From Candidatus Cloacimonetes bacterium HGW-Cloacimonetes-1 (lineage in GTDB: Bacteria; Cloacimonadota; Cloacimonadia; Cloacimonadales; Cloacimonadaceae): DNA of 41,870 nucleotides. Each line of letters starts with the position of its first letter. The stretch's first letter is position 1. The notes below the pieces were generated by a model. The model was not told the DNA's origin. It did not search any database and saw nothing but the letters and a program-made list of their open reading frames with translations. Both the position numbers and the translations under genes were made by a program. Positions 6,228 through 39,000 of this stretch are shown here, piece after piece. The stretch is taken from the NCBI GenBank assembly GCA_002841975.1, contig PHBQ01000019.1, positions 1 to 41,870 of the forward strand, written 5' to 3'.

Positions 6228-6306
6228 GTGCTTCCGGGCTCACACGAGGGCTTCACGAGGGGATCACGAGAGTATCACCCGGGACAGAAGTAAGTAACAT
6301 AATAGC
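6228..6306 (+). repeat. Intergenic 11-bp-period repeat element, copy A
   Basis: Three consecutive 11-bp units: GGGCTTCACGA (6248-6258), GGGGATCACGA (6259-6269) and GAGTATCACCC (6270-6280), then GGG. A looser unit precedes them (6236-6247). CCGGG before and CCCGG after the units could pair. It shares units and flanks (TGCTTCC before, AGTAAG after) with copies near 21600 and 38910. It lies upstream of gyrB. Confidence 0.75.
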
Positions 6307-6449: not shown

Positions 6450-6481
6450 AAAAAAAAGGCTCGATGCGCAAACATCGAGCC
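6450..6481 (-). terminator. Rho-independent terminator after the porE-like gene
   Basis: On the minus strand, GGCTCGATG and CATCGAGCC form a perfect 9-bp stem with a 6-nt loop, followed by eight T residues (A-run at 6450-6457 on the plus strand). It lies about 20 nt past the stop codon at 6502 and would end the giant-protein/PorV/PorE transcript. Confidence 0.93.
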
Positions 6482-6501: not shown

Positions 6502-8328
6502 TTATTCTACTACTTTGACCTCGACTCTGCGATTCAAAATCCTGCCCTCAGGAGTACCATTATCTGCTATAGGAGCTGTAAGCCCCATTCCTTTGAATGT
6601 CAGTCTTTCAGGTTCTACATCCTTAGATAGCAAGTATTCAACGACGGACTTTGCCCGACGCTCGGAGAGCTTGAGATTGTACTTAGCTGTTCCGATATTA
6701 CAGGTGTGCCCTGATACTTCGATTTTGATTTCCGGATTGTTGATCATTGATAATACAATATCATTTAATACTGGATAGGAACTCTCTAATATGACAGCAC
6801 TATCAAATTCATATTGAACATTATTGAAGACAAAGACCTTCTTCACGACCATTTTTTGCAGTTCGAAATTGATCTCAACTGTGGTAGAATCATCAGTGGG
6901 ATAAAACTCTTTTGAACTGATGAAATAACCATCTTTATTCACGGTTACCACATATTTATCTGCGTATGGCAATGTGATGTCGAATCTACCATTATTGTCT
7001 GTACCTGTTACATCACGATAGCTGTTTTCATCAATGTCATAATTGAAAATAACATCTGCCATTATAGGATTTCTGTCCTCATCAGTGATTCTTCCGGTGA
7101 ATCGAATGGGAGACTTGGTAGGTTTCTTCTGTGCAATAACATCTGTTTCATCAAATACTGTCTTCTTGTCACCGGTTGTCTTATCAACGATCAAATATTC
7201 CCGGGGAGCGTATACAAGATTCAGTGCAAATAGATTTTCGAAACCTTCCGCTTGACGGTCTGTGCTAAAAATTGCTTCGTTAGTGTTCTTGATGTGATAG
7301 TAGTAACGATCATTTTTGATGGAATTAATCGGTAAACCCAAGTTTTCGGGAATAGACCAATCCGTCCAGTTATCACCGATTTTAACGGCCTTAAAGATGT
7401 CGTAGCCGCCAAATCCAACATGGTTGTCGGATGCAAAGAACAGAGTTTTGCCATCCCAATCCAAAAATGGGGTTTGTTCGTTTCCAACTGTATTGATCAT
7501 GGGACCCAGATTGATCGGTTCTTGCCATTCGCCATCCAGCTTTGAGCTGACATAAATATCGGTTCCACCAATACCGTCAGGACGGGAAGAAACAAAAAAC
7601 AACAACTGATCTTCATAGCACATCGGTTGTAATTCGACCTGAGTAGTGTTTAATCTCTGAATTGGTTTGGGGTTATCCCATTTACCGGAGTAAGTGCTCG
7701 TGTACAAGTCACCATCAATCTTGCCCCGTTCATAATTACCAAAGACATAGGCAGTATTTCCATCTGGAGTGATTGAGCCTATGGTTTCGTTTTTGTCGGT
7801 ACTGAGTTCTGTAACCAACTGTGGTTTGCTCCAAGTATTGTTTAGTTTCTCGGAACGATAGATGTTTTCCTTATCGTATCTGGAAGGACGCAGGGATGTA
7901 AAGTACATATACTTTTTATCCGGACTGACGATTGCGCCATAATCAGAATTACGGCTGTTGAGGTACGATGGCATTTCTCGCATAGTGATCTTCTCGAATA
8001 TCAAGTACTGTCTATCCATAATCTCCAGATAGTTTTTGACTTCATGAGAATACTTCGAGTCTTTCGAACCAACGTATTTATTTAGCCATATCCTGGCGTT
8101 GACTGTATCAGCAACGGCAATATTCAAACGTCCCAGCCAGTAGAAATATTCAGGAACGGAGCCATTGGCTGCCTTGTCTGCACTTTTAAAAGAATGGATT
8201 GCATCAGTGTAATCACCACGTTGATAAAACTCTATGCCATCCAGAGCATAACGCTCTCCTTGGAGTCCTATCCCGGCAAGGCTTGCTACCGTCAGTAGCA
8301 AGCCCAGAACGATTAATACATACTTCAT
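6502..8328 (-). CDS. PorE-like OmpA-family protein (TPR, PD40 propeller, carboxypeptidase-regulatory-like domain, OmpA C-terminal)
   Basis: 608 residues, ATG preceded by AAGGAGA. Domains in order: an N-terminal hydrophobic signal, a TPR-like helical part (about 25-110), a propeller with PD40-type repeats (for example FVSSRPDGIGGTDIY and FASDNHVGFGGYDIF; about 120-375), a carboxypeptidase-regulatory-like beta domain (about 405-490), and an OmpA-type peptidoglycan-binding domain (about 500-608, ending NRRVEVKVVE). This order matches PorE of the Bacteroidota type IX secretion system, which sits in the periplasm or outer membrane and binds peptidoglycan. The last gene of the giant-protein operon, 27 nt after the PorV-like gene, it is followed by a terminator. 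The peptidoglycan motif reads GHTCNIG, with Cys543 where GHTDNIG-type motifs have Asp. Other proteins with PD40 and OmpA domains exist, so the T9SS role is an inference. Confidence 0.85.
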   Translation of the reverse strand: MKYVLIVLGLLLTVASLAGIGLQGERYALDGIEFYQRGDYTDAIHSFKSADKAANGSVPEYFYWLGRLNIAVADTVNARIWLNKYVGSKDSKYSHEVKNYLEIMDRQYLIFEKITMREMPSYLNSRNSDYGAIVSPDKKYMYFTSLRPSRYDKENIYRSEKLNNTWSKPQLVTELSTDKNETIGSITPDGNTAYVFGNYERGKIDGDLYTSTYSGKWDNPKPIQRLNTTQVELQPMCYEDQLLFFVSSRPDGIGGTDIYVSSKLDGEWQEPINLGPMINTVGNEQTPFLDWDGKTLFFASDNHVGFGGYDIFKAVKIGDNWTDWSIPENLGLPINSIKNDRYYYHIKNTNEAIFSTDRQAEGFENLFALNLVYAPREYLIVDKTTGDKKTVFDETDVIAQKKPTKSPIRFTGRITDEDRNPIMADVIFNYDIDENSYRDVTGTDNNGRFDITLPYADKYVVTVNKDGYFISSKEFYPTDDSTTVEINFELQKMVVKKVFVFNNVQYEFDSAVILESSYPVLNDIVLSMINNPEIKIEVSGHTCNIGTAKYNLKLSERRAKSVVEYLLSKDVEPERLTFKGMGLTAPIADNGTPEGRILNRRVEVKVVE

Positions 8329-8355
8329 ATCAATATCTCCTTTGATTCCACTTCA

Positions 8356-9330
8356 TTAGAAGCGGAGAATCATCGAGACGATATGATCGTCGTTAAAGAT
8401 ATCGTGGTTATTAATTCTATAGGCATAATCCAATTGCAGGTTACGAAGCTTCAAACCAGTACCAACAGAGAAACGTCCATCATTAAATCCCAGGCGGACA
8501 CCAGTCTGAGCGTTGGAAAGAACATCCTGCCACGTGTTACGTTCTTTAACGGAAACTACTGAAAGCTTTGAATTTGCTTCCGTATCCTTACCGATGGAAG
8601 TCCAATACTCTGCGCCAATCGCAAAAACCGGATCTTCAGATTTTTCCATCTTCACATCACCGGCCAGTGTAATTCCCAAAAATGGGTAAGCTGCAACCCC
8701 TAATGAGAGCTGGTATGGAATGGCATCTCCATCTATAGAGCCATACGCATCGCGAATCATGAGACCAGCGACTAAGTACTGATTGATATCATACTTGGCT
8801 CCCAGATCAAGGCCAAACCCGGATTTTGTCTCACCATCCATCATGGACAGATAGACTTTGGGAGTGATCCCATACTGGATATTCCACATCTGATTTGCAT
8901 AGCTAAGGCCAATGTTGTGTTCATTGTGATTGAAGAAACCTGTCGGCTGGTCCTGATCTGTAAATCCTTCGATATCATCAACAGTGGCATTAACCCAGTT
9001 GAGGGCTAAAGAACCAAAGCTGTATCTTCTCCCGAAGGCTGCATATTTGAAGCTGCGATCGTATCCCATTTTCAGATTATACATTGATGCAAATTCAATA
9101 TCTTTGATGTTGTAAAGTCCGGCCGGATTCCAATATGCGGCAGTGATATCACCGGTAGTAGCTGTACCGGCATCTCCCATTGCCATTATTCTGGCGCCTA
9201 TACCCATACGGATATAGGCGGCACCTGAATTGTTATCTTGGGCATAGATAGCTGTAACAGCTATCAACAATAATGCTATGATCAATATCTTTCTCATGCT
9301 AACACCGTTTTTTCTGTTTATCTTCTTCAT
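8356..9330 (-). CDS. PorV/PorQ-family outer-membrane beta-barrel protein
   Basis: 324 residues. After a signal peptide (cleavage likely after ...AIYAQ) comes the PorV-family N-terminal pattern (AAYIRMGIGARIMAMGDAG, then AAYWNPAGL). The rest alternates like a beta barrel and ends in Phe, as expected for insertion by the BAM machinery. In T9SS bacteria PorV carries cargo from the translocon to the attachment complex, and PorQ binds PorZ. The start at 9330 is favoured over the internal ATG at 9297, because GGGGAGG lies 5 nt before 9330 and overlaps the stop of the giant gene; the internal ATG has no binding site. The coupling with the giant gene suggests it serves that protein. PorV and PorQ cannot be told apart here. 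Confidence 0.8.
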   Translation of the reverse strand: MKKINRKNGVSMRKILIIALLLIAVTAIYAQDNNSGAAYIRMGIGARIMAMGDAGTATTGDITAAYWNPAGLYNIKDIEFASMYNLKMGYDRSFKYAAFGRRYSFGSLALNWVNATVDDIEGFTDQDQPTGFFNHNEHNIGLSYANQMWNIQYGITPKVYLSMMDGETKSGFGLDLGAKYDINQYLVAGLMIRDAYGSIDGDAIPYQLSLGVAAYPFLGITLAGDVKMEKSEDPVFAIGAEYWTSIGKDTEANSKLSVVSVKERNTWQDVLSNAQTGVRLGFNDGRFSVGTGLKLRNLQLDYAYRINNHDIFNDDHIVSMILRF

Positions 9331-9341
9331 TTTATCCTCCC

Positions 9342-12300
9342 CTACTTCACAGCAATCTTGATTACTTTTTCGGAACGGTTAATACCATCATTGGCCACAA
9401 TTCTGGCAAAATAGGTTCCCCGTGCCACCTTTACCCCACCTGAGGTTTTGAGGTCCCACGGAATTTCAATTAAGTTTGCACTGGTCGTTGGGACAGTGAG
9501 TGTCTGTACTTTCTTACCTGCAAAATCATAGATCGAAACACTGATTTGCACGTTGTCGTTCCTAGAAAGTACTAACTTGATTTTACATGAAGTAATCGCA
9601 GGATTTGGATAAACGTGAGACACATCACTAATCGTCAAATCTTGGGATTGATACTCAATCGTTGTTGTCATACTGGGGTTACTCTCTATTCCATTATAGA
9701 TAGCTGTAACATAGTATTGGTATGATTGATTGTTCAGAATTGCATAATCATCATAATAATACAGCGAATCCTGAGTTGCAACAATCGGAGAGGTGTTCAT
9801 TTTTACAAATTGAGTTTCGCCAATTCTTCTACGATATACATTGAAGCTGTCTAATGTTCTGGTGGCTATAGGTGAGTTCCATATCACGCGAATATATCCG
9901 GAATATGTAAAGGCACGAACATTGATGGGCAAGAGTAGCACCGAATAAGTGCCGGTAACTATACCACTTGAAACCCAGTCCTGTTTGAATGCTTTGGCTT
10001 TTACAGTATAGTCGTAGATCAATTCCGGGATCTCAATTCCTTCAGTATAGATCGGAGATGTTTCGAGAGGATCACTTCCATCCAAGGTGTAACGTATCGT
10101 CGCACCGAGAGTGGTAGTTTGGATCAACAGCTCGAATGATTCCGAATAGATACCATCTGCATGAGATAGCGTCGGATCTGCGACAGTTCCGGTGATAGTG
10201 TAGACGGCGGTTTGAACGTCACTTGCTACCCAGTTCTCGGCAAAACCTTTGATCTTCAGAGTTGTAATAGTATCTAAGGCAAAGACCAAAGGATCGGTAT
10301 AGGACAGCGATTGAACGGTGGGATCCGTTCCGTCTATAGTGTATCGAATGACGGCATTAGTCGGCAGTGTAGCCGGAGCAATTTGCACTGTTTGAGCCGT
10401 GGTATAAATACCGGGCAGTACGTTGAATGGATTTATTTGCAATGTCACTTGTCCTGTCACACTGTAGGTGGCAGAAATCGTTTCACTGGGAATCCAATTT
10501 GCACTAAATGCTTTGGCTTTGATGACCATGCTCGCAGTGTTCAATGGGATCTCAATTGGAGCAGTGTAGATTGCAGAAGTCTCATCGGGCTCACTGCCAT
10601 CAGTTGTATAGTGGACTGTGGATGCGGATGGGAACGGAGCAGCAGAGATCGCCACACTTTGTGCAACAGTATAAATACCGGCAGCAGGTGTGAATTGATT
10701 TCCTGTCCAGGAGACCTGGCCCGTAATCGTATAATCTGCGGTGTAGACTGGGCTTGGTATCCAGTCTGTTTTAAACGCTCTCACCTTGATAGAGGTTTGA
10801 GTATTGATCGCGAGTTCTATTGCTGATGTATATAGCGCAGAGCTTGCAGTTGGATCCGTTCCGTCTGTGGTATAGCGCAGTTGTGAGCCAGCAGGCTGGG
10901 TTGTAGTATTAAGTGTCACAAACTGAGCAGCTTGATACAAGCCGGCAGCAGGTGTGAATACTGGATCGGCAATACTGACTTGGCCTGTTACAGTATAGGC
11001 TGCAGTATGGATTGTACTAGGCAACCAATTATTCAGATATGCTCGTGCCCGAATCACTACAGATGTATTCACTCCGATACTAATAGGAGTGGTATAAATC
11101 GGTGAAGTGTTATTGGGGTCAGAGCCATCCATAGTGTAGTGTATTACAGCACCCGTAGGTACCGTTGTTGAATTTATAGACACAGTTTGTGCTGATGTAT
11201 AGAGTCCAGCAGCAGGTGAGAAATATGGTGCGGACATCTGTACTGTTCCGGTTGTTGTATATATCCCGGTATAGGTCAAGCTCGGTGTCCAGTCGGTTTT
11301 GAAGGCTTTGACTTTGACAGTCATGTTAGTATTCAAAGCTAAGCTGATCGGACCGGTATAGAGCTGAGACGTTGTGGTTGGTTCCGTACCATCTAAGGTA
11401 TAGCGTACATTTGCATCCTGAGGAGTCGGGAACGCTATTGTAATATTCTGAGCCGTAGTGTATACGCCAGGAGTAGGAGAGAATACCGTTGCAGGGAATT
11501 CTACTGTTCCGGTGACATTGTAGGTTTGTTGAGTAATGCCACTGGTGACCCATCCGGCTTTATAAGCTATGGCCTTGATAGTCATTGAAGTATTGAGCGG
11601 AACTATGATAGCCGATGAATACGCTGGGGAAGCATCGGTTGGATTGCTGCCATCAGTTGTGTATCGGATCGTGGTTCCAGCAGTGGTAGTTGAGAGATTT
11701 ACGCTCTGAACATTTTGGAATGTTCCACCCAGAGGGTTAAACACTACATCAGCAACGACTCCAGTAATCTCGTAAGATTCCATTATAATCGCACTGCTAA
11801 GCCATCCTGTTTTATAAGCAATAGCTTTTACAGTTTGCGACGAGTTGATTGTTATCGGAGCCGTGTACAATGTTCCGTCAGTAGGAGATGGATTTGTTCC
11901 ATTTGTAGTATAACGAATCTGAGCTCCGGGAGTACTGACGTTCAATGTCAGTGACTGCCCGCTGGTATAAATCCCTGATACTATAGAGAACATAGGATTC
12001 AACACTTGCAAATTATAAACAGCTGTTGCTACTTCAGAATTTATCCAATCGGTCTTGAAAGCTATTGCCTTCAATGTGGTATTAGCAGTAATCGCCACAG
12101 GTACAGTATAAAGTGTTCCTGTGGTTGGAGTGGGATCGGTTCCATTTGTAGTATACCGAATCGATGCGTCCCCCGGGAATGATGTAATACCAACCAATTG
12201 ATCAGTGTTATATGTTCCTGCAATGGGATTGAAGATCGGATTGGCGACAGCACCATTAATCGCATATACAGAGCTAACAACAGGGGATGAGTTCCATCCT

Positions 12301-15300
12301 GTCATGTAAGCAATCGCCTTAACGATAGTGCTTTGACTAACTGTAAATGGTGCAGTATAGAGCATACCAAATACATCCGTGGGGTCACTGCCGTCCAATG
12401 TGTAGCGGATGCTGGCACCATTTGTAGGAGTAGTGAGTGTAATAGTCTGCGCATCGGGGTAGGATCCTGATAGAGGGGTAAAGGATGGTGCACTTACGTC
12501 GAATTGATAAGTTGCCATCGCTATTGAGGAAGATACCCAATTTGCTTTGTAGGCTATAGCTTTGATGGTCTGTCCGACACTAACTGTTAGAGGAGCACTA
12601 TAGATCGTGCCGACTGTTTCAGAGGGGTCGCTGCTATCAGTGGTATATCTCACGGTTGCATCTGCAGGAATTGGGCTTGAGATACTTACCGTTTGGGTCG
12701 AGCTATAGTTTCCGCTTGCAGGTGTGAACACCGGCGAAGTAAAGCTTACTTGACCTGTAATAGTGTAAATACCAGAGACGATGTCACTGGCAGTCCAATC
12801 TGCCTTGAAAGCTTTAACCTTGATTGTTGTAACGCTATTCAAAGCAAGAACTATAGGACTGAAGTAAGAGGCAGAGTTCTCATCAGGGTCGGAACCATTC
12901 AAGGTATAGCGCAGGGTTGCTCCAGCGGGAATGGTTGCAGTGTTCAAAGTGACAGTTTGGGATGTTGTATATACTCCCGGAGTCGGAGTGAACATTGCAG
13001 CTGAAAGAGTTATCTGTCCTGTTACCACATAATCTGCTGTATATATATCACTGGGTAACCAACCGGCTCTAAAGGCTCTCACCTTGATCTGTCTTACGGT
13101 ATTCAAGGGAATAGTGAGAGCGGCCGAATATATCGTCGAAGTCTCTGTGGGAACTGAGCCATCAGTAGTATATCGAATGACTGCATCACTGGGGCTTGGA
13201 ACGGATAAGACTTCTACAGTTTGCGCTGTTTGATATGTTCCGGATGCCACGCTGAATACTGGCATACTGAGTGTTACCTGGCCTGTGATATTGTAGGTTT
13301 GTTGTGAAATCGTACTCTCTGTCCATCCTGATCTATAAGCCTTAGCTTTGATAGTCATGGATGTATTTACGGGTACGTTTATTGCCGTTGTGTATAGAGA
13401 CGAAGCTTGACTGGGGTTGCTGCCATCGACAGTATAGTAAATACTGGAGTATGGCGTAGGAGTAGTCAATACTACATTCTGTGCATTTTGATAAGTGCCA
13501 CCAATGGGATTAAATACCACAGGATTTACAACACCGGTAACATTGTAGAGACCGGTATATACTTCACTGGCTATCCAATCTGTGAAGAAGGCTCTTGCCT
13601 TGATCAATACCTGAGTATCACCGGGGATGCTGATAGGTCCGGCATATTGAGGTGATGTTGATGTAGGATTATCCCCATTTGTGGTATAACGGATCACCGC
13701 ATTTGAAGGTATCGTAGTTGCCACTATACTTACCAATTGAGGAGTAGAGTAGTAACCTGGAGCAGGATCAAACACTGGTTGTATCACAGCTACCTGACCG
13801 GTCATGTTGTAAACGCCGGTCACGATTGCACTGCTTGCCCAGGTGTTTTTGAAGGCTCTTACCTTAATTGTAGTCACTTGTGCCATCGGTAAACTGATAG
13901 CCGTTGTGTATACAGGTGAAGCCGCTGTCGGATCTGTTCCATCAAGTGTGTAACGAATCACAGCGTCACTAGGGGTAGCACCGTTGATAGTGATATTCTG
14001 GTGAGTACTATACGTCCCCGGAGCAGGGCTCAACAATGGAGCAGCCAATGTCACAGCACCTGTAATATTGTATGATGCACTCATCATATCACTTGCTATC
14101 CAGTTATCCAGGAAAGCAATAACATTAATGGTTGCCGCACTATTAAGGAGAACCGCAATCGGATTACTGGGACTGTACGCCTGTGAAGCCAATGTTGGGA
14201 TGCTACCGTCAAGAGTATAGTAAAGGGTAGCACCTGCAGGTGTAGTAACCTGATTCAAGGTAACAAACTGCTGAGTCTGGTATGTCCCGGAGACGGGACT
14301 AAACATTGGAGTACTCATCGCAACTTGTCCGGTTATCTGATAGAAAGCGGATATAGTATTGCTAGGTAACCAATCTGTTTTGAAGGCTTTTACTTTAATC
14401 ATCGTAGAACTATTCAGTCCCAAGCTGATTGGTGCAGAGTAAACTGCCGATGTTTCTGTTGGATCTGTGCCATCCGTTGTGTAACGCACTATGGCATCGG
14501 TGGGCAGAACCGTGGGAGTTATCACAATATTGCGCGCAGTTTGGTAAATACCGGGTGCCCAATTAAATGTAGCACTCAGGCTGACTGCGCCATTGATATT
14601 ATATACATGGGTGACTGTATTACTGGGAGTCCAGCCGAACTTAAAGGCTTTCGCTTTGATGGTCGTAGTAGTCATAGCGGGAACATCAATCGGAGTGTAA
14701 TATCTTGTCGATGTTGCTGTAGGTTCGGTTCCATCCAATGTATAGCGAATAATTGCATCTACTGTAGTTGTAGAAAGTGCCACGCTCTGTGCTCCGGAAT
14801 AAGTTCCTCCCGGAATACTGAACGCTACATCTGCCACCACACCTGTCATATTGTACGTAGCGACGGCAACAGGGCTTTCAAAATATCCGGTTTTATATGC
14901 TTTAGCCCGGAAATTATAAATCTGGTTCAGCTGCAAAGCTACAGGTGCAGTATAGAGAGTGGATGCTGTCGTGGGATCTGTTCCATCCAACGTGTAGTAA
15001 ATGGTAGAGCTGGGAATAGCTACACTAATCGAGATGTTTTGAACTGTGCTGTATGTTCCTGCAGCAGGAGTAAACACCGGTGTAGGCAGGATGTTTGCAT
15101 TATAGGCTGCGACCACCACATTGCTAGGTGAGTAGTTCACTGCAAAAGCTCGGGCTTTGATAATAGTGGCAATGCCAACTGGAATCAATATCGGAGCGGA
15201 ATAAACAGCAGACGCCTCAGTGGGTGTGCTGCCATCTAATGTGTAGTAAATTATCGCATTTGCAGGCAGGGTAGTTCCGATGGACACCGAAACTGCATCC

Positions 15301-18300
15301 ATACCGGAAGCAGGGGTGAAGATTGGATCTACAAACACAACCTGAGGACTGATAGTGTACACAGCAGTTTCAATAGCACTGGGTATCCAATCTTGCTTAA
15401 ATCCTCGTACTTTTACGGTGGTGATAACTCCCGCGGGAATGATAAGAGGACTTACATACTCCGGGGATGCATTCGTAGGGTCTGTTCCATCCATAGTGTA
15501 GCGCAGAGTTGCACCCACTGGCGTGGTTACCTGATTCAAGCTAACAGCCTGTGCTGTCTGATAGGTGCCACCAATTGGTGTAAATATATTATTCGAGATT
15601 ACTACTTGTCCGGTAATGTTGTAAACACCGGTGATAGTAGTGCTCGGAGCCCAGCCAGTGCGGAACACTTTGATTTTGATTGTGGATAATACACCGTCAG
15701 GTAAGTTTAAAATACCCGGGAATATGAGGGAGTTGGCATCCGGTTCAGATCCATCCAGAGTAAAGCGAATAACATCACCTGGCAGTGTATCGAATGAACC
15801 ACTGATACTTACATTCTGTGCAACAGTATAAACACCGGGAGCAGGTGTAAAGGCATTGCTACCATTGACACCGCCGGTTACCAATACAGGACCTGTAATT
15901 GAATAGGCTCCAAGAGCTTCGTTGCTGGTAACCCAGTCTGTCTTAAAAGCCTTGGCTTTGATTAATACGGAAGTATGTTCAAGCACTGTGATAGGTGCTG
16001 AATACAAGGGCGAAGTTGCTGTAGGAACTGTTACTCCATCCGTAGTGTAGCGGATCTCTGCACCTAAAGTAGCAGATTCGATCTGAACATACTGAGTAGA
16101 TGTATAAGCTCCTGATACAGGTGTAAAGAAAGGAGTTCCGACTTGGAAAGAGTAGGTGGAAGTAGTCGTTTCTGAAGGATTCCAACCCACTAAGAATGAC
16201 TTCGCTTTTACAACTGTGTAAGAATTAATGGATACAATAGGAGTATAGAGTAGTGATGTCGAGGTCGGCTCTGATCCATCCAGTGTATAGCGAATCTCTG
16301 CGCCGGCAATCGTAGCCATTGTGAGATTGATCGCATTGGGGTAAGTTCCGGTTACAGAACTAAATGTCGGTGCAGGTAACTGGAAGGTATAGGTAGCAGT
16401 CGTGATATCTGAATCAATCCAATTGTTCTTCACGGCTATTGCTTTTACTATTGTACCTGTATTGATTACAAAAGCCCCTGTATATTCAATACTGGCAGCT
16501 GTAGGATCAGGTCCATTTAGTGTGTAGTAAATGTGATCATAATCCGTGTTTGTAAACTGTACAGTTTGAGCCTGACTATAAACACCCGATACAGGAGAAA
16601 ACACCGGAGCGGTGACTTTCATAGTATAGCCGGCTTCGGAAATCAAAGACACATCCCATGCTATGCTAGCATCACGATAGGCTATAGCTTTGATATTGGT
16701 ATTTCCATTTATTGAGAATGGTCCTTCATAGAGAGTTCCGGTGGTACGTGAAGGAGGGGTAATACCATCTGTTGTATAGCGAATATAGGTCTGATTTATC
16801 GGTGAAGTCGAGAGACTGATAGTTTTATGATCTGCTAAACTCTCGATTAAGGTAAATATTGGAGCGACCGGTCTGAACTTATAGCTCGCAGTAGCGACCG
16901 AAGAAGTAATCCAGAATTCTTTGTACGCTATAGCTTGCACTACTGAATTTTCCGGCACGCTAAATGGTCCGCTGTAAATGGTGCCGTATGTGGCGGTAGG
17001 AACGCTGCCGTCTGTAGTGTAGCGAACAGTCGCATCGGCGGGTAAAGCACTGATTCCCAGAGTAATAGGAGCGTTGTATGTGCCACCCTGAATACTGAAC
17101 ACAGGCATTGAAACTGCACCATTAATGGTAAAGGTAGCAGCTATTTCAGGTGAGTTTGTCCAGTTATTCCTGGCGCCATAAGCTCTCAAGACCGTGGTCT
17201 GTAATATAGTAATAGGTGCTGTGTACTGGATTCTGGTCGCACTCGTGGTGGGATCACTGCCATCAAGTGTATAATACACTTCAGAGCCTGTGGTATTGGG
17301 AGTTAGGACCAAATTAAATCCCTGTGCGTAAACTCCGGTTGAATGTGATAAGGAAGGAGTTCTGACAAAGAAATTATACTGACCTGTTTTAACTACAGGA
17401 GTCGGCCACTCGTTATGATAAGCAATTGCCTTCACCGTCGTCGTCTGAGTGATCTGCGGAGGATTTTGATTGTCATAAACCAATGATGTTTGGTTTGGGA
17501 CACTGCCATCTAAGGTATAATTAACAGTGGCATCGGATGGATAGGAAATAATCCTGAGCTCCAGTTCTTCATAATGAGAGCCCGGAAGAGGGCTGAATAC
17601 CAAAGATATCGGGGTAGAATTGATAATGTATGAAGCTACTCCGATTCCGCTATTCGCCCAACCATTCAAGATAGCGATGGCTTTGAATGTAGTACTCTGA
17701 GTTACTGTGATTTGTCCGGTGTATACATTGCTGCCGGCATTGGGAACAGTACCATCCGTGGTGTAATAGATCGTCGCACCCGGAGTAGTGCTGCTAATGG
17801 TAATATATTGAGTTCCGGCATATGCACCTGAGTTTAAGCTAAAAACAGGAGTTTCTACGGTGCCGGTTATCACATAATTCCCTATGGCCATTGCAGAACT
17901 ATTACCTCCAACCACGTATGCAATAGCATTGATAGTCAAAGAAGCACTGACAGGAACAGGGCTGCTGATATCAAAGGTCGTGCCATGGGTGGCAGTAGGT
18001 ACACTGCCGTCCGTAGTATATCGAATAATTGCACCAGGTGTTGCGCTATACATCCATACGTCGATTGCATTTGTATATGGTGCAGTGGGAGGTGTATTGG
18101 GAGATGTAGTAGGAGGAGGTGTAAAGGCGGGCATAGCCACTGTCCCACTGATGTTGTACACACCAGTAAGGATATCAGATGTTGCCCAATCGGCTTTCAC
18201 AGCTATAGCTCTGATTGTCCTGGTAACATTTACAAAGAAAGGTCCGGTATATTGTGTGCTATTGATCGAGGGTGCGCTTCCATCCGTGGTGTAATAAATT

Positions 18301-21245
18301 GTAATGTCAGAAGTAGCGCAGGATAAACCCACTTGAGTGGGATTCAGATACGTATTGGGGAGATTGACAGTAAATGTTGGCGTTGCCACTTGATCTGTAA
18401 CTGTATAGGTTCTGGTGGCAATAGCGCTTTGATTCCATCCGTCGCGGATGGCTCTGGCTTTAATAGTTCTTATTGTTTGTACAGGAACCGTAATAGGTCC
18501 CACGTAGAGGATTCCGTTTGTGATATTTTCGCCAATAGCCATGGGATCACTCCCATCCGTAGTATAACAAATCCGGTTTAAGGGGTCGGTTTGCAGTACT
18601 ACATTTACAGGTGATGTATAAATCACTGCATTATCTGTAACAAAGCTGGGCGGTGCTAAAATGTTTACATAGTAAACACCTCTGCTGATACCACTGGGAG
18701 CCCAGTTGTTCTTATAGGCTCTGGCCTTGATAATCGTGGTACCTTCCGGCGCAGTGATAGCGCCTGTATAGAGAGTTCCGACCCCTGTATTGTTGGGATC
18801 AGCGGGCTCTACCGTGACATCATTGGAATAAGTATAATATATCTGGGTGTTTGTTGCAACAGTGCTCAACAGTACATGTTGGGTAGTTTCGTAAGCCCCG
18901 GGAGCTGGAACAAACATAGGGTTATCCACGGGTCCGCTGACGGTATAACCAGCTCTGTAAACAGGGCTGGGGAGAACATCATCATGATAGGCACGAGCCT
19001 TGATGATGGCAGTCTCGAAACTGTCTACTAGGATTTGGTTATTACTAATGTACGGAATTGAATTTTCGTTTGGATCCGGAGGTTCTGTGCCATCGTAACT
19101 AATGGTAAAATAAACTCTACCATTTGACGGGATCGTACTATTGATCGACACATTAATCGGAGCCGTATAAGTTTGTCCTGGTGCCGGTGAAAACACAGGA
19201 GCTTGAATAATCACACGGTTGTTAATTATGTAAATACCTTCGGCATATACACTGGGAGCCCAGTCAGTTCTAAATGCCCTAATTCTGATAAACGAGGGTT
19301 CATCAATAGCAATTGGCTGACCCGTGTAGATTGGCGAGTTTGCAGTTGGTGTGCCATTAATGGCATAACGCAAGACTGTATTTGCATCATTAGGATAAAG
19401 CTGGATTCCTGTTACAGTCACCATAAAGACAGAATCAACTGGAACGATATATGTCCCCGGAGGGGGTACAAACGTGTAGAGGTCAATTCTGGTAGTTCCA
19501 GTCACACGGAACATGTTCTCTGCATAGGCACTATTGTTCCAGAGGTTCTTTTTGGCAATTGCACGAACTTTTAATCTGGTATCTTCACCTATGTGAATCG
19601 GAGCAGTGTATAGCGTACCACTCGTGGCCGGATCCGCAGGAGGATTGCCATCAGTGGTATATGTGTAATAAATCTCAGCACCCGGTGTCGAGGAACTGAT
19701 AGTCAAATCTTGCTCGGTTGTATATATGTAGGTGTTCAGCCCGGCATCATAAGGCGTGAGGTTAAACACCGGAGTTCCTACATCGCCAGTAATGTGGTAA
19801 GTCTGGCTAAGAACTGTAGAGGGGCCATAAACGTCATCGATAAACATAGCGGTGATAGTTACTATGTTATCAGTATTCATCATGCCTATGACGATCGGAT
19901 TTGCGGGATCATACACCGGTGAATTTGCATCTGGTGTAGAGCCGTCTAGGGTATAATAGATCGGCGCATTCGGATAGGGTGCGGGCGTGGATAATGATAC
20001 CTCCACACCGTGAGTATAAACTCCACCCAGTAATGAGAATATTACACCATTGGGTAAAACCTCGACTGTCCAAACCAATGGATCAAGAGTAACTATTCCA
20101 TCCGAAACAACCACAGATACTTCAAAAGTGCCTGGATAGTCGAATGTGTAATTTGCAGATGATGTTGTAGATATCTGCTGACTGATTTGAGTTCCATAGT
20201 TGCTGCCGGTTACCGTCCATGTATATGTCATGGTAGTTCCCGTAGTACTATAGGGATCATCTGCATCAGTGGCATTGACAGAGAAATTCTGTGTATCCCC
20301 TTGGGTCAATTCCAAATTTAAAGAAGCAGGCAGATAGCTGTTTATCACAGGAGCATCATTAATATTTGCCACTCTGATCACAAAAGTGTTACGGCAAGTA
20401 TTAAACACAGGATTATCTGTAAGATAGTTGTTGACGTTATTATCTAGATTTGTAACAACAAACCTGTAGTCTCCATAGTAATTCGGTATAGGAGTAAATG
20501 TAACTGTTTTGCCAGTATAAAGTGGCGTTTGGAAGAAATTTATCAGATATGGAGGGGGTAAAATAGGAGTGATAAAAAACTGAAAATCATTAGGATTTGT
20601 GAGATTATCCACGCTCTGAATCAAACGTACACCATTGTAGTCTGTAAAATTGACGGTCAATACTTCGTCTTCGTTCATGGGAATCACGTAAACTGTGGTA
20701 CCATCAGGGTCAATCTCTTGAAATTCCACTGGGCATGTGAGGATAATCGGATCATCTACTGGATCAACTGTAATAGTGACAACAGCAGTTGCCAATACAC
20801 GATTGGGATCTCTATTAACCTGCGCTACACCAATAATCAGTGTTTCTGTTCCATACCAATGCATAGCCGATGCTTTGGGAGTGAATATTAACTCGAGACG
20901 GTTTAAGGGATTTACAGAGATATCAAAATGCTGAGTGGGCGTGCTATAATACAGATATAACGAGTCTGTTCCCGTGTACACTACGTGCGGCCTAAAGTTC
21001 TTTCTCCAAGGCTGATCTTCCAAAAACCTGGAATCACCCGCCAGCGGCAATTGCACCGGTATCGCAGTGGAACCAAAATCCCAAGTGGGATCTACACGGT
21101 CCACGCGTGAATTGTTAACTTTTATTTGGTTAATAACGTCGGTTGTAATCTCTGATTCTTTGAGGTTAAAAAAATCAGTTGGGACAGCATACAATGCCCC
21201 CATAAATAATAAAGCTATACAGATAAATGTAATTAGCCTTCTCAT
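9342..21245 (-). CDS. Giant secreted protein: about 39 CHB_HEX_C-like repeats, FN3 and T9SS-type C-terminal sorting domain
   Basis: 3967 residues in one uninterrupted frame. ATG with AGGAG 6 nt upstream. Layout: signal peptide (1 to about 20), cadherin/PKD-like Ig domains (about 120-395, with NDAPV-type motifs), about 39 tandem modules of 78-95 residues (about 400-3768), one FN3-like domain (about 3770-3865), and a C-terminal domain with YPNPA, SIYDFAGKKVQ, GTYFARI and KVIKIAVK motifs. The last resembles the T9SS type A sorting domain and the FlgD Ig-like fold. Each module follows the pattern F-P-GxY ... IRYTxDGxxP ... Y-x-PI ... IKAxAFKxxWxxS ... YxITG, as in the non-catalytic C-terminal domain of chitobiase/hexosaminidase (PF13290/13287 type). 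No glycosidase domain is present, so a structural, adhesive or carbohydrate-binding surface role is inferred. It heads an operon with the PorV- and PorE-like genes. Confidence 0.92.
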   Translation of the reverse strand: MRRLITFICIALLFMGALYAVPTDFFNLKESEITTDVINQIKVNNSRVDRVDPTWDFGSTAIPVQLPLAGDSRFLEDQPWRKNFRPHVVYTGTDSLYLYYSTPTQHFDISVNPLNRLELIFTPKASAMHWYGTETLIIGVAQVNRDPNRVLATAVVTITVDPVDDPIILTCPVEFQEIDPDGTTVYVIPMNEDEVLTVNFTDYNGVRLIQSVDNLTNPNDFQFFITPILPPPYLINFFQTPLYTGKTVTFTPIPNYYGDYRFVVTNLDNNVNNYLTDNPVFNTCRNTFVIRVANINDAPVINSYLPASLNLELTQGDTQNFSVNATDADDPYSTTGTTMTYTWTVTGSNYGTQISQQISTTSSANYTFDYPGTFEVSVVVSDGIVTLDPLVWTVEVLPNGVIFSLLGGVYTHGVEVSLSTPAPYPNAPIYYTLDGSTPDANSPVYDPANPIVIGMMNTDNIVTITAMFIDDVYGPSTVLSQTYHITGDVGTPVFNLTPYDAGLNTYIYTTEQDLTISSSTPGAEIYYTYTTDGNPPADPATSGTLYTAPIHIGEDTRLKVRAIAKKNLWNNSAYAENMFRVTGTTRIDLYTFVPPPGTYIVPVDSVFMVTVTGIQLYPNDANTVLRYAINGTPTANSPIYTGQPIAIDEPSFIRIRAFRTDWAPSVYAEGIYIINNRVIIQAPVFSPAPGQTYTAPINVSINSTIPSNGRVYFTISYDGTEPPDPNENSIPYISNNQILVDSFETAIIKARAYHDDVLPSPVYRAGYTVSGPVDNPMFVPAPGAYETTQHVLLSTVATNTQIYYTYSNDVTVEPADPNNTGVGTLYTGAITAPEGTTIIKARAYKNNWAPSGISRGVYYVNILAPPSFVTDNAVIYTSPVNVVLQTDPLNRICYTTDGSDPMAIGENITNGILYVGPITVPVQTIRTIKARAIRDGWNQSAIATRTYTVTDQVATPTFTVNLPNTYLNPTQVGLSCATSDITIYYTTDGSAPSINSTQYTGPFFVNVTRTIRAIAVKADWATSDILTGVYNISGTVAMPAFTPPPTTSPNTPPTAPYTNAIDVWMYSATPGAIIRYTTDGSVPTATHGTTFDISSPVPVSASLTINAIAYVVGGNSSAMAIGNYVITGTVETPVFSLNSGAYAGTQYITISSTTPGATIYYTTDGTVPNAGSNVYTGQITVTQSTTFKAIAILNGWANSGIGVASYIINSTPISLVFSPLPGSHYEELELRIISYPSDATVNYTLDGSVPNQTSLVYDNQNPPQITQTTTVKAIAYHNEWPTPVVKTGQYNFFVRTPSLSHSTGVYAQGFNLVLTPNTTGSEVYYTLDGSDPTTSATRIQYTAPITILQTTVLRAYGARNNWTNSPEIAATFTINGAVSMPVFSIQGGTYNAPITLGISALPADATVRYTTDGSVPTATYGTIYSGPFSVPENSVVQAIAYKEFWITSSVATASYKFRPVAPIFTLIESLADHKTISLSTSPINQTYIRYTTDGITPPSRTTGTLYEGPFSINGNTNIKAIAYRDASIAWDVSLISEAGYTMKVTAPVFSPVSGVYSQAQTVQFTNTDYDHIYYTLNGPDPTAASIEYTGAFVINTGTIVKAIAVKNNWIDSDITTATYTFQLPAPTFSSVTGTYPNAINLTMATIAGAEIRYTLDGSEPTSTSLLYTPIVSINSYTVVKAKSFLVGWNPSETTTSTYSFQVGTPFFTPVSGAYTSTQYVQIESATLGAEIRYTTDGVTVPTATSPLYSAPITVLEHTSVLIKAKAFKTDWVTSNEALGAYSITGPVLVTGGVNGSNAFTPAPGVYTVAQNVSISGSFDTLPGDVIRFTLDGSEPDANSLIFPGILNLPDGVLSTIKIKVFRTGWAPSTTITGVYNITGQVVISNNIFTPIGGTYQTAQAVSLNQVTTPVGATLRYTMDGTDPTNASPEYVSPLIIPAGVITTVKVRGFKQDWIPSAIETAVYTISPQVVFVDPIFTPASGMDAVSVSIGTTLPANAIIYYTLDGSTPTEASAVYSAPILIPVGIATIIKARAFAVNYSPSNVVVAAYNANILPTPVFTPAAGTYSTVQNISISVAIPSSTIYYTLDGTDPTTASTLYTAPVALQLNQIYNFRAKAYKTGYFESPVAVATYNMTGVVADVAFSIPGGTYSGAQSVALSTTTVDAIIRYTLDGTEPTATSTRYYTPIDVPAMTTTTIKAKAFKFGWTPSNTVTHVYNINGAVSLSATFNWAPGIYQTARNIVITPTVLPTDAIVRYTTDGTDPTETSAVYSAPISLGLNSSTMIKVKAFKTDWLPSNTISAFYQITGQVAMSTPMFSPVSGTYQTQQFVTLNQVTTPAGATLYYTLDGSIPTLASQAYSPSNPIAVLLNSAATINVIAFLDNWIASDMMSASYNITGAVTLAAPLLSPAPGTYSTHQNITINGATPSDAVIRYTLDGTDPTAASPVYTTAISLPMAQVTTIKVRAFKNTWASSAIVTGVYNMTGQVAVIQPVFDPAPGYYSTPQLVSIVATTIPSNAVIRYTTNGDNPTSTSPQYAGPISIPGDTQVLIKARAFFTDWIASEVYTGLYNVTGVVNPVVFNPIGGTYQNAQNVVLTTPTPYSSIYYTVDGSNPSQASSLYTTAINVPVNTSMTIKAKAYRSGWTESTISQQTYNITGQVTLSMPVFSVASGTYQTAQTVEVLSVPSPSDAVIRYTTDGSVPTETSTIYSAALTIPLNTVRQIKVRAFRAGWLPSDIYTADYVVTGQITLSAAMFTPTPGVYTTSQTVTLNTATIPAGATLRYTLNGSDPDENSASYFSPIVLALNSVTTIKVKAFKADWTASDIVSGIYTITGQVSFTSPVFTPASGNYSSTQTVSISSPIPADATVRYTTDSSDPSETVGTIYSAPLTVSVGQTIKAIAYKANWVSSSIAMATYQFDVSAPSFTPLSGSYPDAQTITLTTPTNGASIRYTLDGSDPTDVFGMLYTAPFTVSQSTIVKAIAYMTGWNSSPVVSSVYAINGAVANPIFNPIAGTYNTDQLVGITSFPGDASIRYTTNGTDPTPTTGTLYTVPVAITANTTLKAIAFKTDWINSEVATAVYNLQVLNPMFSIVSGIYTSGQSLTLNVSTPGAQIRYTTNGTNPSPTDGTLYTAPITINSSQTVKAIAYKTGWLSSAIIMESYEITGVVADVVFNPLGGTFQNVQSVNLSTTTAGTTIRYTTDGSNPTDASPAYSSAIIVPLNTSMTIKAIAYKAGWVTSGITQQTYNVTGTVEFPATVFSPTPGVYTTAQNITIAFPTPQDANVRYTLDGTEPTTTSQLYTGPISLALNTNMTVKVKAFKTDWTPSLTYTGIYTTTGTVQMSAPYFSPAAGLYTSAQTVSINSTTVPTGAVIHYTMDGSDPNNTSPIYTTPISIGVNTSVVIRARAYLNNWLPSTIHTAAYTVTGQVSIADPVFTPAAGLYQAAQFVTLNTTTQPAGSQLRYTTDGTDPTASSALYTSAIELAINTQTSIKVRAFKTDWIPSPVYTADYTITGQVSWTGNQFTPAAGIYTVAQSVAISAAPFPSASTVHYTTDGSEPDETSAIYTAPIEIPLNTASMVIKAKAFSANWIPSETISATYSVTGQVTLQINPFNVLPGIYTTAQTVQIAPATLPTNAVIRYTIDGTDPTVQSLSYTDPLVFALDTITTLKIKGFAENWVASDVQTAVYTITGTVADPTLSHADGIYSESFELLIQTTTLGATIRYTLDGSDPLETSPIYTEGIEIPELIYDYTVKAKAFKQDWVSSGIVTGTYSVLLLPINVRAFTYSGYIRVIWNSPIATRTLDSFNVYRRRIGETQFVKMNTSPIVATQDSLYYYDDYAILNNQSYQYYVTAIYNGIESNPSMTTTIEYQSQDLTISDVSHVYPNPAITSCKIKLVLSRNDNVQISVSIYDFAGKKVQTLTVPTTSANLIEIPWDLKTSGGVKVARGTYFARIVANDGINRSEKVIKIAVK
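9940..20047 (-). repeat. Coding tandem repeat array, about 39 modules
   Basis: I counted 39 modules by the recurring YTxDG core, each 78-95 codons. Modules are clearly diverged at DNA level. Sub-types are visible: a longer type with linker QV.L and TxPxGA before RYT, and a shorter type (about modules 7-16 and 29-33). Modules 26 and 33 share the run NTSMTIKA and the ending QQTYN, and modules 18 and 23 share LNQVTTP, which suggests duplication of blocks. Confidence 0.85.
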
Positions 21246-21599: not shown

Positions 21600-21685
21600 C
21601 ACTTGCGTTGAGTTCCCCTTGCACTCACAAGGGCTTCACGAGGGAAGCACGAGGGGATCACCTCGGTTTTGATCAAGGCATGAGA
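21600..21685 (+). repeat. Intergenic 11-bp-period repeat element, copy B
   Basis: Units GGGCTTCACGA (21631-21641), GGGAAGCACGA (21642-21652) and GGGGATCACCT (21653-21663), then CGG. A looser unit ending TCACAA precedes them. CCCTT and AAGGG flank that unit and could form a small stem. CGAGG and CCTCG at the end form another. Same orientation relative to the downstream minus-strand gene as copies A and C. Confidence 0.75.
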
Positions 21686-24067: not shown

Positions 24068-24096
24068 CATAAATTCAGATACCGTCATTTTGTCAA
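24068..24096 (-). promoter_or_regulatory. Putative promoter of tRNA-Arg (and the ABC-F gene)
   Basis: On the minus strand TTGACA (24096-24091) overlaps the thyX stop codon. A 17-nt spacer leads to a weak -10 TTTATG (24073-24068). Transcription would start only a few bases before the mature tRNA 5' end at 24055. Confidence 0.5.
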
Positions 24097-25484
24097 TTAC
24101 TTTGCTGAGATGGAACAAATTCACTCTTGCCCATGAGGTACTTTGCAGTGATCGGACAGAGAGTTTTGATGATCCGTGCAATCTCTTGGGACAAGACCCG
24201 AATCTCCCACTGGGCATGCTCGTCTGAACGCAGGCGTACGAAGTGATGTAGTTCCCGCAGATTCATGCGGACGAGCACAGTTACCTGATGTGAATTGGTG
24301 AGAGCATAAGCCCCAATACCGGGATGCTTGGATTCGATTAACTGCCCCAATTGGCAAGATTTTGCCAGCAGTATCTCCCACCGCTCACGGGAGTCGGCAG
24401 GAATATTGGGCGGAACGATTTGAAGGTCATCAAAGCTATGCTTTTGACGGATAATGGTGCATAAACGGTGTCTTTTGAACTGCGCCCAGCAGCTCTCGGA
24501 CATGTGTAATTCAAAAGTAAATTCTGCCATTTCAAATGCTCTGGGAAGCTTGTGCCAAACTTGCATATCTTGATAAAGCTGTTCACTAAGGCGCGCTATT
24601 TCCTCAGCATCCGCTTGGGACAAGTAATCCAGAATTTCCTGATAGCCGGTGTGAGCATTGGAATAAAGTAATGCTGCCAGGATTTGCAGATCGGCTTCAT
24701 CTGGGCTACTGAGCAATGTTACACTACTTCGAGGTTTTTGGGATGAACCGGGGAAAGTCATCTCAAAACACTTTTGGTAAAACGAGTCCGGCTCCGTATA
24801 ACGAATCAGAGAGGGGGTAAGGTCTTTTACTACACGATATAGCTGTTGAGATAGCTCCAGAGCTTCGCTAGTGTTAAGCCCATTGAGACGGCGCAGCAGA
24901 GCTTCGAGGCTTCGGGCATTAATCGTCATTCCCATTTGGGTTTTCGTGGCCAGGGGTAAGATGTATCTGGCATCTTCTTTAGCCATGCCCTCTTGTTCCC
25001 GTTTCTTGAGCAATGGATAATCTGCCATCACTTGGATCAGTAAAGAACCCAGCGTTTGTTGGTATTCCCGAAAGAGCTCTCCCATTAGAGCGACATACTG
25101 CACCTTGAGATCGTGATCAAGCTCCGAAGGAACTATAAAGTCGTTGTGAAAGGTAACATAGCGTTGTGACTTTTCTGTAAACGAAGCTAATCTGCTTCTT
25201 TGCAAAGTTTCGGTCAAGAGTCGAGATACACCGATAATGTCGATATTGAAAACAGCATGCTCCGCCACCGAGCTGTGCCCCATCTCAAATATAATATTCT
25301 CATTTGAGGTACGTGCTTTATTGATCTGGGAGAGTGCTTCCTGACGCAGTTCAGATATGGATTTGCTGCTGCGGCTGATCCTGGCATAGGCCGCGGATAT
25401 GACCTCCGGAGTAGTCTCTTGATTTTCGATGAATCTCTCAATCAGACTTTTGTCGATATTGTAACCTGCCAATACTATCTGCAT
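24093..25484 (-). CDS. thyX: FAD-dependent thymidylate synthase, duplicated-domain form
   Basis: 463 residues, about twice the usual ThyX length (about 220-250). ThyX methylates dUMP to dTMP with FAD, NADPH and methylene-tetrahydrofolate, and works as a tetramer. The first half has HSSVAEH (70-76) and the signature-like RSRLASFTEKSQRY (96-109; classic RHRxxSxNExSxRY). It also has a weaker NARSLE segment. The second half repeats the fold: FKRHRLCTIIRQKHSF is a decayed version of the signature, while RMNLRELHHF and HAQWEIR (406-429) keep the nucleotide-binding motif well. The halves therefore look complementary. AAGG lies 7 nt before the ATG; the deoC stop is 9 nt upstream. It is the last gene of the ricT-like/rlmN/deoC/thyX unit. 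Confidence 0.88.
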   Translation of the reverse strand: MQIVLAGYNIDKSLIERFIENQETTPEVISAAYARISRSSKSISELRQEALSQINKARTSNENIIFEMGHSSVAEHAVFNIDIIGVSRLLTETLQRSRLASFTEKSQRYVTFHNDFIVPSELDHDLKVQYVALMGELFREYQQTLGSLLIQVMADYPLLKKREQEGMAKEDARYILPLATKTQMGMTINARSLEALLRRLNGLNTSEALELSQQLYRVVKDLTPSLIRYTEPDSFYQKCFEMTFPGSSQKPRSSVTLLSSPDEADLQILAALLYSNAHTGYQEILDYLSQADAEEIARLSEQLYQDMQVWHKLPRAFEMAEFTFELHMSESCWAQFKRHRLCTIIRQKHSFDDLQIVPPNIPADSRERWEILLAKSCQLGQLIESKHPGIGAYALTNSHQVTVLVRMNLRELHHFVRLRSDEHAQWEIRVLSQEIARIIKTLCPITAKYLMGKSEFVPSQQSN

Positions 25485-38908: not shown

Positions 38909-39000
38909 AGTGCTTCCCTGGAGAATCTCTGGTCGCGACCAGGGCTTCACCCGGGGTTCACGAGGGGATCACCTCGGATTCCAGTAAGGAACAATAATGC
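38909..39000 (+). repeat. Intergenic 11-bp-period repeat element, copy C
   Basis: Units GGGCTTCACCC (38942-38952), GGGGTTCACGA (38953-38963) and GGGGATCACCT (38964-38974), then CGG. Directly before lies a perfect 14-bp palindrome CTGGTCGCGACCAG (38929-38942). CCCTGG and CCAGGG also flank this part. It shares TGCTTCC at the start and AGTAAG at the end with copy A. Confidence 0.75.

Follow-up and report, generated by a model that had tools for sequence, protein, structure and literature searches.

A conserved three-gene unit of Cloacimonadota encodes a giant T9SS-type cargo, a PorV-family barrel and a PorE-like protein

Analysis of a 41,870-nucleotide stretch of the genome of Candidatus Cloacimonetes bacterium HGW-Cloacimonetes-1 (hereafter the window) strongly supports the proposal of an initial annotation that a giant cargo gene and the two genes following it constitute a cargo-specific T9SS-type unit. 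Three lines of evidence carry this finding: the genome encodes SprA and PorU, the order of the three genes is conserved, and the C-terminal tail of the cargo occurs once per genome and only together with the barrel and putative anchor genes. The best reading is that the unit is a PorV-family, PorU-type counterpart of the known trio of type B cargo, PorP/SprF and PorE.

The unit consists of three open reading frames on one strand, which exactly fill the span 6502-21245 that had been assigned to them. The stop codon of the cargo gene and the start of the barrel gene are 11 nt apart, with a GGGGAGG Shine-Dalgarno sequence immediately after the stop. The start of the barrel gene had been described as coupled, which holds in the sense of very close rather than overlapping genes. 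The spacing between the barrel gene and the PorE-like gene is 27 nt, as reported before, and the operon is indeed closed by a terminator-like hairpin with a 10-bp stem followed by 8 T, the strongest such site in the region. The unit is flanked by gyrB and gyrA downstream and by an ABC-F gene upstream. We claim no promoter for it because a scan of its surroundings (45 vs 40.6 in shuffles) did not exceed the shuffled sequences.

Table 1 Features of the unit in the window.
Feature	Position	Strand	Basis
Giant cargo, 3967 aa: signal peptide, variable N-terminal region, repeat stalk, T9SS-type C-terminal domain	9342..21245	-	ORF
Repeat stalk, ~38 CHB_HEX_C_1/Fn3_assoc units	9906..20048 (approximate boundaries)	-	Pfam, landmark spacing
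C-terminal sorting domain, unit-specific subclass (IYDFAGKKV...RGTYFARI...EKVIKIAVK)	9345..9632	-	TIGR04183, A3 profile, predicted structure
PorV-family outer-membrane barrel, 324 aa, proposed dedicated carrier	8356..9330	-	NF033709, fold model, clade
PorE/CHU_0125-like periplasmic protein, 608 aa, proposed anchor	6502..8328	-	ORF, Pfam, NCBIfam
OmpA domain of the PorE-like protein (aa 506-600)	6529..6813	-	Pfam OmpA, 70 bits
Intrinsic terminator-like hairpin, unit end	6458..6481	-	10 pairs, 6 G-C, then TTTTTTTT

Two further features of the window were recorded. The 14-mer CCCTCGTGAAGCCC is present in both intergenic regions flanking the unit (6248-6261 and 21631-21644), and two near copies lie near 38950 (38942-38966); with four matches against 0.18 expected, it looks like an intergenic repeat family. 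On the minus strand at 24093-25484, a ThyX-type protein of 463 aa has two matched stretches and, at about double the family model's length, may represent a duplication or fusion of thymidylate synthase.

The cargo opens with a Sec-type signal peptide, identified by inspection (aa 1-20, MRRLITFICIALLFMGALYA), and a variable region (about aa 21-400). Its stalk is built of chitobiase C-terminal, Ig-like repeats, with 38 Pfam matches to CHB_HEX_C_1 and 38 to Fn3_assoc, and the repeat units are mostly 80-90 aa apart. Full-length homologues range from 2879 to 4329 aa (L035, L037, L038, L040, L042, L044 and L045), and open frames reach 7763 aa, with the tail, barrel and anchor kept there. The bodies of these proteins vary wholly between genomes, being made of chitobiase or other Ig-like repeats, whereas the tail is constant. 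Cargoes of a sister group within the family, and of further families in the order, have Ig-like repeats and no chitobiase repeats.

The tail was said to be of the T9SS sorting type, a view that would have failed had it been a plain FlgD-like domain. It passes TIGR04183, the T9SS type A model (37.1 bits, cut-off 23), falls under the cut-off of Pfam Por_Secre_tail PF18962 (22.7 bits, cut-off 27) and lies just over that of FlgD_ig (27.7 bits, cut-off 27). The type B tail models TIGR04131 and CHU_C gave no cargo match at E 0.01 in searches of Pfam and NCBIfam. The AlphaFold model of the tail is a seven-strand beta-sandwich (pLDDT 94) whose best PDB match is PorU (6ZA2), with PorZ and FlgD among the lower matches. 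A profile of the unit tails compared with solved structures likewise favors PorU (6ZA2, E 7e-12) over FlgD (E 5e-4). Since both profile and fold fit PorU better, a plain FlgD-like domain is ruled out, and the assignment as a T9SS-type tail is upheld.

Within the T9SS-type tails, that of the cargo stands apart. The motifs DFxG[KR] and RGxYFA[RK] are present in all 25 unit tails and in none of 31 other tails drawn from two genomes having the unit; the latter mostly read YNxxGQ. A profile built from the unit tails (A3) was searched over 61 genomes and returned just one strong match (98-155 bits) in each of 25. In the genome of the window, the unit tail scores 153.9 bits and the next tail, on PorU itself, 63.7 bits. 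Across 125 Cloacimonadota genomes, the unit tail is found exactly once in 38 and never more than once. The 25 unit tails form one clade (support 96), and in the tail tree, which covers only 100 columns and has weak inner branches, they lie closest to the PorU and PorU2 tails (joint clade 99) and not to general cargo tails. Thus, the cargo tail is its own CTD subclass of the type A/PorU kind, with PorU CTDs as its nearest relatives by sequence, tree and fold.

The second gene had been called a homologue of a T9SS shuttle protein, and the fold matches agree. Its product scores 86.0 bits against NF033709, the PorV/PorQ family model (cut-off 90), and several orthologues exceed that cut-off (e.g., 100 bits in G003). 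Against NF033710, PorV sensu stricto, it reaches 34.8 bits, under the equivalog cut-off of 250. The structural model is a FadL-type barrel of 14 strands (pLDDT 75), with its best fold matches to PorV from SprA-PorV structures (6H3I_F and 8GL6_F), and PorV was the only match in a sequence search of the PDB. A tree places 16 unit barrels in a single clade (99), separate from 17 PorV-family proteins outside the unit that were taken from three genomes. The barrel contains zero cysteines.

The third protein has the PD40 propeller, CarboxypepD_reg and OmpA domains of Pfam in the order seen in PorE, together with a TPR-like N-terminus that was seen by inspection only and has no Pfam match. Its scores against the NCBIfam models of PorE (NF052230, 206.9 bits, cut-off 600) and CHU_0125 (223 bits, cut-off 620) lie far under the cut-offs. 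A signal peptide is present, and a lipobox is absent from this protein and from all relatives scanned. PorE binds DAP via Asp576, Asn584 and Arg591 (PMC7192894). The corresponding triad in the window is Cys543-Asn551-Arg558, with the Cys543 codon at 6700-6702 on the minus strand. Of 19 Cloacimonadota homologues scored, 14 have cysteine at the position of the DAP-binding Asp, as against none of 33 from Bacteroidota and elsewhere; the Asp is retained in the L052-L056 group. The initial annotation had named this gene a homologue of the PorE peptidoglycan anchor. A PorE-like character is consistent with the domains and scores, but we treat peptidoglycan anchoring as a hypothesis only, because the protein is a distant relative of PorE, lacks a lipobox and has Cys in place of Asp576. 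The OmpA domain may bind peptidoglycan through the remaining Asn and Arg, bind another ligand or make use of the thiol.

Other arrangements of related domains were also seen. At two loci (L043, 13264-17629, in G009; L059, G031:C168), a protein of 665-674 aa with no family match is followed by a PorE-like protein, which in the L043 pair has PD40 and OmpA domains and a GHTC motif as in the unit. At a third locus (L057, 514-4971, G014:C34), FG-GAP repeats, a CBM, PD40 and OmpA are joined in one chain of 1485 aa.

Comparison with relatives, which had been suggested as a check, showed that the three-gene order is kept across Cloacimonadota. Close relatives of the PorE-like protein occur in about half of 60 related genomes, and nearly every such locus with enough flanking sequence has a tailed cargo gene, a PorV-like gene and the PorE-like gene. 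Gaps are mostly 0-20 nt in about 25 Cloacimonadota genomes that share this order and come from the family itself and from further families of its order; counting all loci read, more than 30 other genomes keep the arrangement. Because the order is kept in other genomes, the arrangement is not due to chance. Among 61 genomes, 27 have both the unit tail and the PorE-like gene (two of these with a partial tail), none has the tail only, 33 have neither, and in one a contig end removes the upstream part. When 13 of the 38 tail-bearing loci were instead fetched by the tail alone, all 13 had a PorV-like gene and a PorE-like gene, or a fusion of the two, beside the tail; eight of these loci had also been found via the PorE-like protein, leaving five as new tests. 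At L079 and L224, the barrel gene was checked by hand and is present, with an antisense ORF opposite. In two genomes, the barrel and OmpA domains belong to one polypeptide (L058 of G054 and L229 of G098), and such fusions point to a joint action of both parts. The lasting proximity and joint inheritance of these genes show that they are functionally linked, but would fit a barrel that serves generally as well as one that reads the unit tail in particular.

A cargo unit of this kind presupposes a T9SS, and the absence of core T9SS genes had been named as an outcome that would count against it. The genome of the window (2.78 Mb, 99% complete) encodes the SprA/Sov translocon (469 bits, cut-off 200, G000:C50) and the PorU sortase (540 bits, cut-off 420, G000:C22), and the T9SS tail model has 113 matches there, the PorV family 11. 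The search for core genes elsewhere in the genome was thus successful for sprA and porU but not for porL and porM. The PorL (TIGR03513) and PorM (TIGR03517) models gave no match in Cloacimonadota and were positive in Bacteroidota controls; they are derived from Bacteroidota, and a diverged motor could escape them. For PorK/GldK, only weak matches were obtained, up to 82 bits (cut-off 350) and to the general fold. PorP/SprF (TIGR03519) was found 0 times in six Cloacimonadota genomes versus 5-25 times in each of three Bacteroidota controls. T9SS export in Cloacimonadota may use a very diverged or different motor. A literature search for T9SS studies of Cloacimonadota found none.

The other PorV-family genes of this genome also tend to lie next to tails. 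Five of the seven loci examined adjoin the gene of a tail-bearing protein (L162, G000:C113; L074, G000:C106; L159, C7; L160, C33; L164, C59), for which we estimate a chance probability of ~1e-4, given 113 tails and a gene number that we put at roughly 2400. Some of these tails form small groups of their own in the tree. At L074, a PorU2-like protein is directly followed by a PorV2-like protein. At L162, the PorQ-like gene is flanked by a subtilase (1390 aa) and a second tailed protein. Because five of seven loci adjoin tails and some of the tails group together, this phylum would seem to have several carrier-tail pairs.

We consider it probable that SprA hands the giant adhesin over to the dedicated barrel, which retains the CTD uncleaved and fastens the adhesin to the cell by way of the PorE-like protein. 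The steps would be as follows: (i) The giant cargo, given its signal peptide, would enter the periplasm via Sec. (ii) At SprA, its CTD would be received by the unit barrel and not by the other PorV-like barrels of the genome, as the exclusive co-occurrence and the cognate clades suggest. (iii) The barrel would leave SprA together with the cargo and retain the uncleaved CTD. This step is suggested by the PorU-like CTD, and the model for such retention is that PorV holds PorU, PorQ holds PorZ, and PorP/SprF holds type B cargo. In Porphyromonas, the CTD of PorU remains uncleaved on PorV, and cognate PorV-like barrels have been proposed to protect CTDs (PMC10202324). (iv) The PorE-like protein would bind the barrel from the periplasm and fix the complex to the envelope, consistent with the barrel-OmpA fusions. 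(v) The outcome would be a very long, repeat-built adhesin standing statically on the cell. A broader and more tentative idea, which we hold somewhat less probable than its negation, is a "one tail, one carrier" code within the type A/PorU branch. PorV-family barrels would have diversified, several of them paired by gene order with their own CTD subclass (counting this unit, PorU2-PorV2 and, in G000, C113, C7, C33 and C59); the carrier of this unit would shield a PorU-like CTD from cleavage, and the giant adhesin would be coupled to the envelope by a PorE-like protein whose ligand site has been rebuilt with Cys.

Several other explanations have to be weighed. The giant protein could be an ordinary type A cargo that is exported by the general PorV, cut by PorU and either attached to LPS or released, the barrel and the PorE-like protein then being general parts of the T9SS that only happen to lie in its operon. 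That its tail passes the general model TIGR04183 fits this account, as does the presence in the genome of PorU and of further PorV-family proteins; of these, the C7 protein comes nearest to canonical PorV (124 bits). However, many genomes lacking the unit tail and the PorE-like gene keep SprA, PorU, other PorV-family genes and tails, the unit subclass of tail is present only once per genome, and unit barrels and unit tails form clades separate from the general ones; we therefore judge an ordinary type A cargo improbable. A variant that leaves the unit as proposed, but in which the PorE-like protein holds the barrel to another envelope partner or via Cys543 instead of peptidoglycan, is rather unlikely. 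The Cys at the DAP-binding position, in the window and in most Cloacimonadota homologues but in none of the Bacteroidota ones, and the missing lipobox speak for it, whereas the retention of Asn and Arg of the triad, the Asp of the L052-L056 group and the good overall OmpA match fit peptidoglycan binding.

The sprB-sprF genes likewise encode a giant adhesin-like cargo with its own carrier barrel, so the product might be a moving gliding adhesin of that kind. PorL/GldL, PorM/GldM and PorP/SprF were not found in the genome with controls positive, though, and GldK matches were weak. SprF needs Cys-X-Cys to join the track (PMC12635249), and since the unit barrel has no cysteine, a disulfide link of the SprF type to a moving track seems unlikely. 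In addition, mobile type B cargoes are without a PorE partner (PMC12618676), and we regard a gliding role as very improbable. A type B cargo/SprF system was considered as well and is ruled out, as the cargo tail matches no type B model and the search of the genome for PorP/SprF was negative. Equally far-fetched is the notion that there is no secretion unit at all, with the barrel a FadL-type importer, the third gene an ordinary OmpA protein and the giant protein exported otherwise. The FadL fold is indeed common to PorV and importers, and the barrel and anchor scores lie under curated cut-offs, but PorV is the best fold match and only PDB sequence match of the barrel, the cargo tail is a T9SS-type CTD, and the strict linkage of tail, barrel and anchor would be left without explanation.

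In Bacteroidota, a single PorV is said to serve every type A CTD (PMC12618676), and private carriers have been described for type B cargoes alone. If the unit's PorV-family carrier is indeed private and comes with a CTD subclass and an anchor of its own, then carrier-tail pairing arose in both branches. The unit would also offer a natural test of the proposal that PorV-like barrels shield their cognate CTDs from cleavage (PMC10202324), and would be the first concrete surface-display system for Cloacimonadota.

The initial annotation regarded T9SS parts as usually scattered from cargo genes and a cargo-specific set as unusual. This is not so for type B cargoes. In F. johnsoniae, each of five operons encodes a type B substrate together with an SprF-like shuttle and a PorE homologue, thought to serve static display (PMC12618676), and in P. 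gingivalis PorP and PorE are found in a complex with the type B cargo PG1035 (PMC9143113). We also found type B-PorP-PorE trios in Bacteroidota, few among the matches to the N-terminus of the PorE-like protein; most of those matches are other CHU_0125/PorE paralogues with unrelated neighbors. Because such operons are known, cargo-specific sets have precedent, and the new element of the unit is its PorV-family shuttle with a tail of the type A/PorU kind.

The type B operons (Fjoh_3952-3951-3950; PG1035-PorP-PorE) resemble the unit in having a cargo, a carrier barrel and a PorE-like propeller/CRD/OmpA protein in the same order, and they follow the logic proposed here of one carrier per cargo. 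They differ in using a PorP/SprF carrier and a type B CTD, where the unit has a PorV/PorQ-family carrier and a type A/PorU-like CTD, and the unit belongs to another phylum and has a PorE-like protein with no lipobox and an altered DAP site. SprB-SprF of Flavobacterium johnsoniae also pairs a giant adhesin with an adjoining carrier barrel gene of its own, but SprF is a PorP-family protein with Cys-X-Cys for the moving track, whereas the unit has a cysteine-free barrel and a PorE-like partner, and no motor genes were recognised in the genome. Canonical type A cargo shares with the unit a PorV-family carrier and a type A-like CTD; there PorV is shared, whereas here one tail subclass is accompanied by a PorV clade of its own. 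In PorU-PorV, PorZ-PorQ (attachment complex) and PorU2-PorV2, a surface protein keeps its CTD on a PorV-family barrel, as proposed for the unit. The unit tail is nearest to the PorU/PorU2 CTDs, and the genes of the PorU2-PorV2 pair are adjacent in the same genome (L074). PorU and PorZ are a sortase and an LPS-binding protein, respectively, whereas the protein held in the unit would be a giant repeat adhesin, accompanied by a PorE-like gene.
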